A model generated the notes under the pieces. It was not told the DNA's origin, searched no databases, and was given only the letters and a program-made list of their open reading frames with translations. A stretch of DNA of 64,000 bases from Rikenellaceae bacterium (GTDB lineage Bacteria; Bacteroidota; Bacteroidia; Bacteroidales; Rikenellaceae), in NCBI GenBank assembly GCA_015059685.1, contig SUZW01000002.1:62001-126000 (forward strand), given 5' to 3'. The translations under genes and the position numbers were made by a program. Each line of letters starts with the position of its first letter. Position 1 is the first letter of the stretch. Below are positions 26,571-53,058 of the stretch, in pieces.

Positions 26571-28688
26571 TTATGAAATCTCCGAAAAATCGGTTTTGTG
26601 TTCGGGTGCGTAGCGGTCACGCAACTCTCGTAGCACAAGGTGGTCGGGGTGCGAAAGCGATGCATCTACGCCCAATATCTGAATGGCCAACTCCTGCGCC
26701 AACTGCAAAATCTGGTTGTCGTAGGTCGGGTTGGCAATCTTCAAGTCGAAGGCCTCGCCACTCTGCATCGTGCCGTTTATATCGCCTGCACCTCGCAGTT
26801 TCAAATCGAGTTCCGCCAACTCGAAGCCATCGGTCGTCTGGCACATCGCCTCCAAGCGTTTGCTCGACTCCTTCGACAGCTTCTCATCCGACATCAACAC
26901 GCAGTAGGACTGCTCTGAGCCACGACCTACACGACCTCGCAGCTGGTGCAACTGCGCCAAGCCAAAACGCTCGGCCGACTCGATAACAATAACGGTCGCA
27001 TTCGGCACATCGACACCCACCTCAATAACCGAGGTTGCGACCAAAATATCCGCCTGCCCATTTTTGAACTCCTCCATCGCCTGCTGTTTGAGTTCGGGCT
27101 TCATCTTGCCGTGGCAGACCGCAACCTTATATTTTGGCAGCGGAAAATCGCGCACAATAGCGTCGAAGCCCTCCTGCAACGATAGGTAGTCCATCTTCTC
27201 GGACTCGGCAATCAACGGATAGACCACATAAATCTGTCGCCCTCGCTCAATCTGCTTGCGCATAAAGTTCTGCAACGACAATCGTGCCGACTCGAAGTAG
27301 TGGTAGGTCTTTATCGGCTGACGACCAGGAGGCAAACCCTTAATAATCGACACATCGAGGTCGCCATACAGGGTCATTGCCAAAGTGCGAGGAATAGGCG
27401 TTGCGGTCATCACAAGGATATGCGGAGGTTGCGCATTTTTGGTCCACAATCGTGCCCTCTGCTCAACGCCAAAGCGGTGTTGCTCGTCAATTATCACAAG
27501 TCCCAAATTCGAGAACTGCACCCTATCCTCAATCAGGGCGTGTGTTCCGACCAAAATATCTATCTCGCCCGCCTCCAATGCGGCTAAAATCTCTCGGCGC
27601 TCCTTCGCTTTGGTTGTTCCCGTAAGTATTGCGATGCGCACCAGCACACCCTCGCACATCTTCGTCATCGAGGCGTAGTGCTGGCGTGCCAAAATCTCGG
27701 TCGGCACCATCATGCACGACTGGAAGCCGTTATCGCCCGCCAACAACATCGACAACAACGCCACCACAGTCTTACCACTGCCGACATCACCCTGCAAAAG
27801 TCTATTCATCTGCACGCCCGACACGGTATCTTGGCGAATATCACGCACCGCCTGCTTCTGACCCTCGGTCAAGTCGAAAGGTAACTTCGTGTGGTAGAAG
27901 GTGTTGAACTTGTCGCCCACCTTCGGGAAGAAGAAACCATCTCTGCGCCCTGTACGCTCCGACCTGCGAGCCTGAATGTTCAACTGAATACCGAACAACT
28001 CGTCAAATTTCAGGCGATATTGCGCCTGTCGCAACTTCTCGGGCGACTGCGGAAAGTGGATATTGTAGAGTGCCTCTTCGAGCGACATCAAGCCATACTT
28101 GCGCACGATATATTCGGGCATATAGTCGTGGATATGGTTGCGCACAACACCCCACAACGAGCAGACGATATTGTATAAACCCTTGCCACCGAGCGTGGTC
28201 GAGAGCTTCTCGGTTGTGGAGTAGATACCCTGCAGGCCACTCTCAACCTTACGAGAGAGCGCTTTTTCGACAACCTCGATTTCGGGGTGCACCATCGAAA
28301 GCTCGCCACGGAAGAAGGAAGGGCGACCAAAGACGATATATTCACGATTAGGCTCGATAATCTTCTCAATCCACTTCACGCCACGGAACCAAATCAACTC
28401 CACACGCCCCGTATCATCGGCGCAATAGACCGAGAAACGCTGCTTGCGCCCCTCGCCCGCAAAGGCTTTGCCGAGAACTCGGACACGGAGTTGGATATAG
28501 GCGGAGGCGTTATCTTCGGTCACCTCACGCACTTTGTAGGTGCGGGAGCGGTCGATGTAGCGGAATGGGAAGTGGTAGAGCATATCACGCATAGTGACGA
28601 TGCCAAGCTCCTTCTCGAGCAACTTGGCACGCACCTCGCCCACGCCCTGCACAAACTTTATCGAATTATCGAGGATAGTACTTCCCAT
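26571..28688 (-). CDS. recG: ATP-dependent DNA helicase RecG
   Basis: LLQGDVGSGKTVVA; IIDEQHRFGVEQR; QLRGRVGRG. Confidence 0.95.
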   Translation of the reverse strand: MGSTILDNSIKFVQGVGEVRAKLLEKELGIVTMRDMLYHFPFRYIDRSRTYKVREVTEDNASAYIQLRVRVLGKAFAGEGRKQRFSVYCADDTGRVELIWFRGVKWIEKIIEPNREYIVFGRPSFFRGELSMVHPEIEVVEKALSRKVESGLQGIYSTTEKLSTTLGGKGLYNIVCSLWGVVRNHIHDYMPEYIVRKYGLMSLEEALYNIHFPQSPEKLRQAQYRLKFDELFGIQLNIQARRSERTGRRDGFFFPKVGDKFNTFYHTKLPFDLTEGQKQAVRDIRQDTVSGVQMNRLLQGDVGSGKTVVALLSMLLAGDNGFQSCMMVPTEILARQHYASMTKMCEGVLVRIAILTGTTKAKERREILAALEAGEIDILVGTHALIEDRVQFSNLGLVIIDEQHRFGVEQRARLWTKNAQPPHILVMTATPIPRTLAMTLYGDLDVSIIKGLPPGRQPIKTYHYFESARLSLQNFMRKQIERGRQIYVVYPLIAESEKMDYLSLQEGFDAIVRDFPLPKYKVAVCHGKMKPELKQQAMEEFKNGQADILVATSVIEVGVDVPNATVIVIESAERFGLAQLHQLRGRVGRGSEQSYCVLMSDEKLSKESSKRLEAMCQTTDGFELAELDLKLRGAGDINGTMQSGEAFDLKIANPTYDNQILQLAQELAIQILGVDASLSHPDHLVLRELRDRYAPEHKTDFSEIS

Positions 28689-28701: not shown

Positions 28702-28828
28702 AAAAAATCGTTCTGATTGGCAAATTTTGCACAAATCTTCAGTAGCCGAGTTCCTCACATACGCATAGTATGCTCCGGACTCGGCTCTTTGCTTTGCACA
28801 AAATTTCCTCAATCATTGACGATTTTTT
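28702..28828 (+). repeat. Long-hairpin repeat copy H2
   Basis: AAAAAATCGT...AGCCGAG-TTCCTCA-CATAC-GCATA-GTATG-CTCCGGA-CTCGGCT...ACGATTTTTT. Confidence 0.85.
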
Positions 28829-28830
28829 GG

Positions 28831-28957
28831 GTGGAGGAACTCTGGAGGGTGTCGGGGCGCAGGTGAATTAGGGTCGTTAGAGGCGTTAGGGGCGTTAGAG
28901 GTGCGCTTGAGGGTTTAGGTTGTCGGAACTCTGAAGGTGGTCGGGGCGCAGGGAGAA
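28831..28957. repeat. Intergenic mosaic: ACTCTGGAGG / GGGGCGCAGG / GGGGCGTTA modules
   Basis: Near-identical phrases recur at 39.7, 52.8 and 54.2 kb. Confidence 0.85.
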
Positions 28958-29165
28958 ATGGGGACGCCAACAAGTTGGCTATCTGGGGGCGCTCCCGATG
29001 GTCGCTTGTTGGGGACGCTGACTGTCAGTCAGCTATTTGGGGTGCGCTTAAAGTAATTGTCAATTGTCAATTTATTTTTTTGCGCCTCCCCATAAAGCAA
29101 TCTCCGATTGCGCCCCCATTAAGGGCGGAACGCCCGCCCCCATAAAGCAGTCGCAGACTGCGCCC
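28958..29165. repeat. Array of short palindromes separated by ~11-bp TATGGGGGC-type units
   Basis: GCCAACAAGTTGGC, GCTGACTGTCAGTCAGC, GCAATCTCCGATTGC, GGGCGGAACGCCC, GCAGTCGCAGACTGC. Confidence 0.8.
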
Positions 29166-29169
29166 CCAA

Positions 29170-29324
29170 AACACAGCGCAAAGTAAAGAAGGCGCTATAC
29201 CCTTACTGGCCCTTAATAGCCCTTACTGGCCCTTACTGGCCGTTATCAGATTGCGCCAACTCTCAACTCTCCTCTTTTTTTGAAATTTCTCTCGTCTCTC
29301 GTCTTTTGTCTTTCGTCTTTTTAT
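29170..29324. repeat. Inverted composite copy of the 17.4-17.5 kb repeat
   Basis: AAGAAGGCGCTATACCCTTACTGGCCCTTAATAG...GGCCGTTATCAGATTGCGCCAACTCTC...CTCGTCTCTCGTC. Confidence 0.85.
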
Positions 29325-29336: not shown

Positions 29337-30815
29337 ATGAATTTGACAAAGTACATACGCAGAGCAAGCCACGAGGTCAAAATTGGCACAACCATCATAG
29401 GTGGCGACACTCCGATTGCCGTGCAGTCGATGACAAATACAGCCACTGCCGATGTGGAGGCGAGTGTGGCGCAAATTGAGCGCATTGCCGATGCAGGTGC
29501 GCCCATTGTACGCCTTACGGCACAGGGTAAAAAGGAGGGTGAAGCCCTATGCAACATTGTTGCACAGGTGCGTCGAGATGGCTATCCGACAGCGATTGTG
29601 GCGGATATTCACTTCGTTCCCGAGATTGCATCTATTGCTGCCGAGTCGGTCGATAAGGTGCGCATCAACCCTGGCAACTACCGCACAAGCGGTGGTGAGT
29701 TGGAGGCGCTAATCGCAAAATGTCGCAAGCGTGGTGTAGCGTTGCGCATAGGCGTTAATCACGGCTCGTTGGCTCGTCATATTATCGACCGACTTGGTGA
29801 TACCCCTGCCGGAATGGTTGAGTCGGCAATGGAGTTTTTAAGAATTTGTGTCAGGGAGCAGTTCGACCAAGTGGTCGTTTCGATGAAGTCGAGCAACACC
29901 CGTGTTATGGTTCACGCCTACCGCCTTTTGGTTGAGGCGATGGAGCGTGAGGGGATGTCGTTCCCTATTCACCTTGGCGTTACCGAGGCGGGTAACGGCA
30001 TCGAGGGCAGAATAAAGAGTGCCGTAGGCATTGGCGCACTCTTGGCCGATGGCGTGGGCGACACAATTCGTGTCTCGCTGACCGAAGCCCCCGAAAATGA
30101 GGTGCCCGTAGCGCAGATGTTGGTTGAGCATTTCCAAAGTCGTGAGGGCAAATTTGAGGTTTTGCACCCCGAGCGTTACTCTCCGACAGAGTATCGTCGT
30201 CGTACCTCGGCACCGATTGTGGCGCACAGCGAGATTACCGATGAATATATTGTGGTCGATGCCGTAAGCGGAAACCCTACAGCCGAGTGGCGTGCTGCAA
30301 TTCTCAATCGTGAGGATGATGCGCCCGTTGTTATCCGTCGCCACTACGAGGGCACAAAGGAGGAGGTTGCCGTGCGTGCCGCAGCCGATATGGGGCAGTT
30401 GTTGCTTGATGGTTTGGCAGATGGAGTGTGGATAGATGCACCGCAGATAGCCGAAAAGGAGTTGCACGAGGTGGAGTTGATGATATTGCAGGCCTCCCGT
30501 GCAAGATTTTCGCATACCGAGTATATTGCCTGCCCTTCGTGCGGTCGTACCCTATATAATATTGAGCAGGCGTTGGCAGATATCAAGGCTCGCACCTCGC
30601 ACCTCAAAGGTCTGAAAATTGGCGTTATGGGTTGCATTGTAAATGGCCCGGGCGAGATGGCGGATGCCGACTACGGCTATGTCGGAGCAGGCGCAGGACG
30701 CATTTCGCTCTACAAGGGCAAGGAGTGTGTCGAGCGCAATATCCCGCAAGAGGAGGCACTCGAACACCTTATAGCTCTCATCAAAGCAAACGGAGATTGG
30801 AAAGAGAGCGAATAA
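29337..30815 (+). CDS. ispG: 4-hydroxy-3-methylbut-2-enyl diphosphate synthase (flavodoxin)
   Basis: IAVQSMTNT; FIACPSCGR-type YIACPSCGRTLYNI; GCIVNGPGEMADADYGYVG. Confidence 0.95.
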   Translation: MNLTKYIRRASHEVKIGTTIIGGDTPIAVQSMTNTATADVEASVAQIERIADAGAPIVRLTAQGKKEGEALCNIVAQVRRDGYPTAIVADIHFVPEIASIAAESVDKVRINPGNYRTSGGELEALIAKCRKRGVALRIGVNHGSLARHIIDRLGDTPAGMVESAMEFLRICVREQFDQVVVSMKSSNTRVMVHAYRLLVEAMEREGMSFPIHLGVTEAGNGIEGRIKSAVGIGALLADGVGDTIRVSLTEAPENEVPVAQMLVEHFQSREGKFEVLHPERYSPTEYRRRTSAPIVAHSEITDEYIVVDAVSGNPTAEWRAAILNREDDAPVVIRRHYEGTKEEVAVRAAADMGQLLLDGLADGVWIDAPQIAEKELHEVELMILQASRARFSHTEYIACPSCGRTLYNIEQALADIKARTSHLKGLKIGVMGCIVNGPGEMADADYGYVGAGAGRISLYKGKECVERNIPQEEALEHLIALIKANGDWKESE

Positions 30816-39626: not shown

Positions 39627-39660
39627 AATTGACAATTGACAATTGACAATTGACAATTTT
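39627..39660. repeat. (GACAATT)n heptamer block
   Basis: AATTGACAATTGACAATTGACAATTGACAATTTT. Confidence 0.9.
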
Positions 39661-39664
39661 TTGG

Positions 39665-39790
39665 TGGTGGGGACTCTGGAGGGGGTTGGGGCGCAGGTTT
39701 ATTAGGGTCGTTAGGGGCGTTAGGGGCGTTAGGGGGGGGGCGCTTGGGGCTTTAGGTTGTCGGAACTCTGAAGGTAGTCGGGGCGCAGGT
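39665..39790. repeat. Intergenic mosaic incl. GGGGCGTTA 9-mers and G9 tract
   Basis: GGGTCGTTAGGGGCGTTAGGGGCGTTAGGGGGGGGG then GCGCTTGGGGCTTTAGGTTGTCGGAACTCTGAAGG. Confidence 0.85.
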
Positions 39791-39793
39791 GTA

Positions 39794-39955
39794 ATGGCAT
39801 TGAATGGCAGGCGTTCGCTAACGCTCACTGAATGGCAATCGCTCGTTACACTCGCTGAATGGCAGGCGTTTACGCTTTTTTTGTTGCAGCTTTCTGCGCT
39901 TTGCCATTAAGCAGTCGATAGACTGCGCTGCCATTAAGGGCGAAGCCCGTTTGCC
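39794..39955. repeat. Palindrome array with TGAATGGCAR / TTAATGGCA units
   Basis: Second copy of the first part at 54400-54505. Confidence 0.8.
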
Positions 39956-40133
39956 ATTCTATGCCATCTTTGTTGCGCTTTGGCAAGGGTCAGAGTCCCC
40001 ACCAACAAAAAATTTCTCGTCTTTAATCCCACTTCGTGGGCTTTTCCTCCTTCTTGCAAGGGATAGTCTGCAAGCAGCCTCTCCTCTTGCTTCGTGCGTC
40101 GGTTCGTCTTTCGTCTTTTTATTATCTTTTTAT

Positions 40134-52599: not shown

Positions 52600-52756
52600 A
52601 ATCTGTTGTTATTTAGTGTATTATTGTTGTTGTAATATCTTCTCCATTGCAAATACCTCGCAAAACGAAGTTTTGAAAAGCCCAAATTGCACACGCAAAA
52701 ATACAAATGATTTCCTACTTTTCCAACCTTTTTTCTTGTTAGTTTTTTCACAATAG

Positions 52757-53058
52757 GGGTTTGGGGTTGTGGGGGCTCTGGAGGTGGTTGGGGGCGCAGG
52801 AGGATTAGAGTCGTTAGGGGCGTTAGGGGTGCGCTTGAGGGTTTAGGTTGGTGGAACTCTGAAGGTTATCACGGCGCAACTTTTTTAGAGGTTGTTAGGG
52901 GTTGTTAGAGGCGTTAGGGGTGCGCTTGAGGGTTTAGGTTGGTGGAACTCTGAAGGTTGTTGGGGCGCAGGTTTATTAGGGTCGTTAGAGGCGTTAGGGT
53001 CGTTAGGGGTGCGCTAAAAAAAAACTCTCGTCTCTCGTCTTTCGTCTCTCGTCTAAAA
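52757..53058. repeat. Intergenic mosaic with two tandem GCGCTTGAGGGTTTAGG...CTGAAGG units
   Basis: GTGCGCTTGAGGGTTTAGGTTGGTGGAACTCTGAAGG at about 52830 and 52919; TCTCGTC heptads at 53027. Confidence 0.9.

Follow-up and report, generated by a model that had tools for sequence, protein, structure and literature searches.

A candidate new type of intergenic palindromic repeat with four G-runs per body and a predicted single-stranded fold

The small dispersed repeats (SDR) of Nostoc are tiny hairpin-forming cassettes within heptamer tandems, present or absent at homologous places. In vitro, the intergenic GGGGATT/GGGGACT repeats found in Nostoc fold into quadruplexes whose T1/2 in K+ exceeds 95 °C (PMC4692102). 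The stem-loop-containing quadruplex (SLQS) is an established structural class with four G-tracts and three loops, each either short or a stem-loop (PMC4477648). In REP/BIME elements, the hairpin is tagged at one end by GTAG or CGTC (PMC3733652). Most natural quadruplexes known from bacteria are single motifs or plain tandem repeats. The repeat described here lies between recG and ispG in the window (the whole 64,000-nucleotide stretch of DNA analysed) and, judged from its sequence, is probably a new type of intergenic palindromic repeat with an unusual structural rule and a predicted fold.

A preliminary description had reported a CRISPR-reminiscent array in which a conserved unit alternates with perfect palindromes, and all of the units and palindromes that it named lie where it placed them. 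Using a stem of at least 5 and a loop of at most 4 as the criterion, six non-overlapping perfect palindromes (36 bp of stem) were counted in the 211-bp stretch 28958-29168, whereas 500 dinucleotide-preserving shuffles averaged 1.1 and never exceeded 5. The units between them include TATCTGGGGGC and TTGTTGGGGAC. Self-complementarity of every insert holds for these six but not for one that the description omitted, GCTCCCGATGGTCGC (28991-29005), an imperfect palindrome of the form GC-[TC/TC]-CC-GAT-GG-GC with a symmetric 2x2 mismatch. This mismatch form was found again in many related hairpins. The array is made up of modules A and B, which are copies of one dispersed intergenic non-coding element in inverted orientation. 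The features of the gap and its flanking genes are as follows; G-runs, heptamer tandems and hairpins with no other basis given were read from the sequence, and the G-rich strand of module B is the minus strand.

26571..28688, minus strand: left flanking ORF, diverging, a conserved neighbour; taken to be recG by protein family
28702..28828, no strand: imperfect inverted repeat of ~125 bp on the recG side of the block, with ends AAAAAATCGT...ACGATTTTTT
28825..28861, plus strand: header 1, GGAACTCTGGAGGGTGTCGGGGCGCA, a repeat, with bracket GGCGCA at its end (28856-28861)
28862..28907, plus strand: hairpin-free body of four 9-mers (TTAGGG/TTAGAGG/TTAGGGG/TTAGAGG), closed by TGCGCT (28902-28907)
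28914..28950, plus strand: header 2, which opens module A, with bracket GGCGCA at its end (28945-28950)
28960..28963, plus strand: module A G-run 1, GGGG
28966..28979, no strand: module A hairpin 1, GCCAAC-AA-GTTGGC; an identical hairpin occurs at other sites
28985..28989, plus strand: module A G-run 2, GGGGG
28991..29005, no strand: module A hairpin 2, GCTCCCGATGGTCGC, class 2; tandem TC.TC here is tandem GA.GA on the opposite strand
29011..29014, plus strand: module A G-run 3, GGGG
29017..29033, no strand: module A hairpin 3, GCTGACT-GTC-AGTCAGC; tip pair C-G, U-G or U-A between copies
29039..29048, plus strand: module A G-run 4 (29039-29042) and closing bracket TGCGCT (29043-29048)
29055..29073, no strand: heptamer tandem AATTGTC, separating modules A and B
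29081..29091, minus strand: module B bracket TGCGCC (29081-29086) and CCCC (29088-29091), minus-strand G-run 4
29097..29111, no strand: module B hairpin GCAATC-TCC-GATTGC, the sole hairpin with an R-N-A loop on the G-rich strand
29113..29117, minus strand: module B CCCCC, minus-strand G-run 3
29123..29135, no strand: module B hairpin GGGCG-GAA-CGCCC
29137..29141, minus strand: module B CCCCC, minus-strand G-run 2
29147..29161, no strand: module B hairpin GCAGTC-GCA-GACTGC, in a slot that holds GCACC...GGTGC at other sites
29163..29180, minus strand: module B CCCCC, minus-strand G-run 1 (29163-29167), and outer bracket AGCGCA (29175-29180)
29191..29257, minus strand: 10-mer body of minus-strand AGTAAGGG units, flanked by GGCGCT (29191-29196) and TGCGCC (29252-29257)
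29289..29321, no strand: heptamer tandem TCTCGTC, adjoining the ispG promoter region
29337..30815, plus strand: ispG/gcpE, right flanking gene, from ORF and translation

Elements similar to the ~125-bp inverted repeat (AAAAATCGTTCTGA... / ...ACGATTTTTT) adjoin arrays at three other loci (L079, L090 and L092), and it seems to be a further dispersed element. The heptamer tandem beside the ispG promoter region has the unit CTCTCGT here and CAAAATG/CAGAATG, GAGAGTT or TTGACAA in relatives (L308-L314); heptamer arrays upstream of ispG occupy an orthologous position with a species-dependent unit. Two more blocks of the same header family lie in the window at 39660-40005 and 52713-52950; they comprise a 9-mer body with a C-type TGAATGGCA element after it, which carries a swapped hairpin (CGCTCGTTACACTCGC), and consecutive 9-mer bodies.

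A search of the source genome for unit, insert and unit gave 84 strict matches, against none for the reversed control. The pairing of a conserved unit with a palindromic insert was borne out in many more arrays. The matches group into about 25 sites, a count that rests on pattern searches and retrieved stretches of a draft genome of 87% completeness. Arrays run into contig breaks at the end of G000:C10 and the start of G000:C18, so the true number of sites is probably higher. All 25 sites lie outside ORFs, with neighbouring genes that are divergent at 8, convergent at 6 and co-directional at 5, while 6 are at contig edges. The resemblance to CRISPR did not survive this comparison. Near-identical direct repeats of about 21-48 bp are absent, the units being degenerate and 10-11 nt long, and in place of unique locus-specific spacers the ~25 sites share one set of hairpins in one order, each slot keeping its own hairpin genome-wide. 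Spacers are all different within one array, as first noted, but not between arrays. The only turnover of inserts consists of altered loops, compensatory changes in stems, a small number of swapped hairpins and a single slot that may be empty. It is the units, not the inserts, that hold the main regularity, namely four G-runs in each body.

The element is built from a header (..ACTCYnnnnnTnRTCRnGGCGCA), a body with four G-runs and a GCGC tail. Module A reads GGGGAC-GCCAACAAGTTGGC-TATTT-GGGG(A/G)C-GCTCCCGATGGTCGC-TTGYT-GGGGAC-GCTGACnnnGTCAGC-TATTT-GGGG-TGCGC and module B reads GGGGGC-GCAGTCTGCGACTGC-TTTGT-GGGGGC-GGGC(G)TTC(C)GCCC-TTAAT-GGGGGC-GCAATCnnnGATTGC-TTTAT-GGGGAGGCGC; GGGGGC or GGGGAC adjoins each hairpin. 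Modules occur singly or as A-B, B-A and A-B-A, the window holding an inverted A-B pair. Bodies are exchanged under the common header. In the source genome it is shared by GGGG bodies with hairpins (18), TGAATGGCA bodies with hairpins (22), and hairpin-free bodies of TTAGGG 9-mers (19) or AGTAAGGG 10-mers (10), and G005 adds TTTAAGGAA (n=3) and TTATAGGA with a hairpin (n=1). In the C-type element, header copies are inverted at both ends. A header with interchangeable bodies amounts to a very small element that changes its core and keeps its frame. The middle of the header is variable; CGAGGGTGG and CTACCCTTG are examples of the forms between which it switches, and these two seem to be complementary in part.

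The hairpins GCAGTC..GACTGC, GGGCGAAGCCC and CGCTCCCGTTGGTCGC are common to several connector families, and some slots hold swapped hairpins. Within G005 one hairpin slot is optional: GGGGG-CGCAGTCTATGACTGCT-TTATAGGGG at two loci (L062, L066) corresponds to GGGGGTTATAGGGG at four others (L061, L065, L070, L075), and the form with one hairpin empty is GGGGGTTATAGGGGCGGGCGTTCCGCCCTTTATGGGGGC....

The repeat is clade-specific, occurring in a subclade of the source genome's own genus. The header pattern gave 89 matches in the source genome and 62, 48, 41, 32 and 13 in five others of one subclade; elsewhere there were 2 in G092, 1 each in G082 and G075, and 0 in the other 92 genomes, with 0 for the control. 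By IspG, which is present in 100/101 genomes of the genus, the closest genomes are these six together with G092 and G082 (at least 89% identity), the remaining genomes reaching at most 82%. The GGGG pattern is abundant in G000, G005, G071, G073 and G081 and low in G101. A wider taxonomic spread was rejected, as pattern matches in GTDB were mostly chance hits in GC-rich genomes; the clear true match among those inspected was in Alistipes sp. RGIG5255 from sheep colon (L111), so the source, a gut bacterium, probably belongs to Alistipes. A phage origin was likewise rejected, none of the 66 pattern matches in viral contigs being palindromic, as expected of chance.

Orthologous gaps record the presence and absence of the element. 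The recG-ispG gap is about 650 bp here versus about 80 bp in G005, G081, G092, G101, G071 and G082. The site shows no recognisable target-site duplication, and the heptamer tandem is replaced there. Upstream of a gene that looks like pfkA, a three-hairpin array (G005, G081) stands in the place of 9-mer and C-type elements (G000), and a single element of G005 corresponds to three tandem copies in G081.

By a strict count in seven genomes, 79/86 bracketed hairpin bodies have four runs of at least 3 G, although all bodies may share one four-unit ancestor, so that the run counts are not independent events. A second parser, which could also start upstream, found four runs in 77/93 bodies, several of its exceptions being upstream over-runs. 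Read from the listings, three of the higher counts begin upstream of the bracket and have four runs inside it. Most exceptions to the four-run rule are parsing artefacts; the genuine departures include L089 (3 runs, one whole unit lost), L256 (5) and L297 (5). Hairpin-free 9-mer bodies of the source genome have four units in 23/29 cases and the left arms of the C-type element in 15/15, while 10-mer bodies mostly have five units, one usually degenerate to CGG. Whole elements are tandemly duplicated from header to tail up to three times in L275 (G081) and L272 (G073), with about four runs kept inside each copy. Four runs also occur in an array outside the subclade (G031, L303), whose hairpins are unrelated, one again with the TC/TC mismatch; a search for arrays closely related to it found no others. 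A different G-run array outside the subclade, in G075 (L304, about 550-800), is longer, consists of GATGGGGGTAATGGGGGCGCTTCGCTT units and is not restricted to four runs.

Between the runs, each loop is either short or a hairpin. Hairpin-free loops are T-rich and almost all 4-7 nt long (TTTACT, 15; TTACT, 13; TTATA, 11; few others). Hairpin-bearing loops are mostly 19-24 nt and comprise a hairpin of 13-17 nt followed by the same 5-6-nt linker at the end. When the SLQS loop criterion (at least 50% paired bases in loops longer than 7 nt) was applied to the G-rich strand, 132/236 long loops reached it, in a tally that includes some parser artefacts and in which class-2 hairpins fall below the criterion with standard DNA parameters.

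Pairing in the hairpins is conserved through covariation of the stems. In 19 class-2 sequences, 94.7% of cells are paired versus 79.2% in shuffles, and both sides have changed in 12 cells. An outer pair is exchanged between GC and AU (GCACC..GGTGC versus ACACC..GGTGT). The tip of the GCTGAC hairpin passes from C-G through U-G to U-A, in a set of six sequences only that does not go beyond shuffles. The triloops follow a purine-N-A rule, seen in 29/35 distinct loops (24 on the C-rich strand and 5 on the G-rich strand), a count for which a binomial value overstates significance because loops within a family are related. All five of the G-rich-strand loops belong to the GCAATC hairpin, which therefore looks inverted. 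The mismatches of the imperfect hairpins read as tandem G.A on the C-rich strand. In single-stranded DNA, both GNA loops and tandem G.A pairs have special stability. With DNA parameters, class-2 hairpins hardly fold on the G-rich strand (about 0 to -0.7 kcal/mol), and with RNA parameters they look more favourable on the C-rich strand; the structured strand may therefore not be the G-rich one. G.T wobbles were considered as a strand indicator and set aside as uninformative, since they occur on both strands.

The reading that we favour, with confidence a little short of even, is a dispersed, non-autonomous repeat, specific to the clade, in which what is conserved is the single-stranded fold. It is favoured because the body pattern agrees with the published SLQS definition and with Nostoc-type GGGG quadruplexes. 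On opening of the duplex, the G-rich strand would form an intramolecular quadruplex with hairpins for its longer loops (a quadruplex-duplex hybrid), and mini-hairpins with sheared R.A triloops and tandem G.A pairs would form on the C-rich strand. The trait that persists would be the fold and not the sequence, so that stems and unit sequences could drift or be swapped while run number and pairing stay. Spread may occur as non-autonomous DNA by a trans-acting or recombinational route on single-stranded DNA. The elements would accumulate in gene-free gaps, in no fixed relation to promoters or terminators, and might benefit the host.

A further possibility, which we regard as doubtful, is that a DNA fold is itself the heritable unit: a quadruplex of four tracts, with mini-hairpin loops that can be exchanged, would spread and be kept despite turnover of unit and hairpin sequences. 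Evidence against a quadruplex comes from sister bodies under this header whose runs are only GG or GAGG (TGAATGGCA, TTAGAGG, TTTAAGGAA), and such bodies make weak quadruplexes or none. Within this homologous family, run number, loop length and hairpin pairing become evolutionary characters to be scored over hundreds of natural variants, making the role of a quadruplex in a living bacterium testable by comparison and cheap biophysics.

A neutral mosaic is rather unlikely but accounts for part of the evidence. One ancestral repeat would have been copied by recombination and replication slippage, with four units merely inherited and perfect palindromes maintained by template switching. The homology of bodies within the subclade is in keeping with this, as are the heptamer tandems and whole-element duplications around arrays and the ending of the assembly inside arrays (contigs C10, C18). 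Nevertheless, units and hairpins have changed greatly (GGGG, GGCA, TTAGGG, TTTAAGGA) with about four units constant, the array outside the subclade has other hairpins and also four runs, and template switching alone does not predict purine-N-A loops.

It is unlikely that the element acts at the RNA level, where the transcribed C-rich strand would be a GCGC-closed multi-hairpin RNA, with three mini-hairpins and C-rich linkers between them, that stabilizes, ends or regulates transcripts. The tandem G.A pairs and R-N-A loops are located on the C-rich strand, which is the coding strand at 25 and the G-rich strand at 10 of the co-directional single-orientation sites (raw counts, five genomes). However, divergent (21) and convergent (17) sites are found too, both module orientations occur within one gap, the hairpins have no U-tract, and the window copy is between the divergent promoters of recG and ispG. 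The stability of GNA loops and tandem G.A pairs in single-stranded DNA favours a DNA reading over an RNA one. A search of the window against Rfam 15 gave only a tRNA elsewhere above the gathering score and no match for the repeats, so a known structured RNA family was rejected. A terminator was rejected because arrays also occupy divergent gaps.

Four binding sites for a DNA-binding protein (a nucleoid protein or silencer), with the hairpins as spacers, would suit the intergenic placement and the approximately four repeats per body whatever the unit type. This is improbable: the unit differs between families (GGGG, GGCA, AAGGG, AAGGA), spacing from 9 to 28 nt breaks helical phasing, and hairpin covariation is left unexplained. 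Highly improbable is a REP/BIME-type element moved by a REP-associated Y1 transposase (RAYT) with GGGGRC as the tag at the hairpin foot, since, although many sites do carry short palindromes between genes, each next to a conserved short motif and in alternating orientation, slots differ in hairpin sequence, the tag is neither GTAG nor CGTC, and Y1_Tnp (PF01797) was found in 0/8 subclade genomes (the source genome and seven relatives, 85-92% complete) but in 5/14 control genomes.

Compared with the described systems, the fold-conserved element proposed here shares with MITEs its non-coding, dispersed nature and, in the C-type, a header inverted at both ends, but no clean terminal repeats or target-site duplication were seen around the A/B type and no transposase is linked to it. 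Nostoc SDR likewise place hairpin cassettes within tandem repeats, with presence or absence at homologous places; here the hairpin sits at a fixed point after a G-run and the unit count is nearly fixed. REP, BIME and REPIN elements (PMC3733652, PMC2817692) are also high-copy intergenic palindromes in composite arrays, often as inverted pairs, whereas the present repeat has no GTAG/CGTC tag, no RAYT found in 8 subclade genomes, and several distinct hairpins in a fixed order per element with G-runs between them. The GGGGA(T/C)T heptamers of Nostoc and GGGAATC heptamers of Xanthomonas (PMC4692102) are similarly intergenic and dispersed on both strands, with a G-run and a 3-nt loop repeated. They form quadruplexes in vitro (PMC4692102), whereas the fold here is predicted from sequence; they are open-ended tandems of variable length, in contrast to about four runs in GCGC brackets with hairpin loops. 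The SLQS shares the plan of four G-tracts of 3-6 G with three loops, which was found here in 79/86 bodies. The human cases are scattered unrelated sequences (PMC4477648), whereas here the pattern belongs to a homologous dispersed bacterial family in which a body holds as many as three hairpins, the tracts are G4-5 and the stem variants covary.
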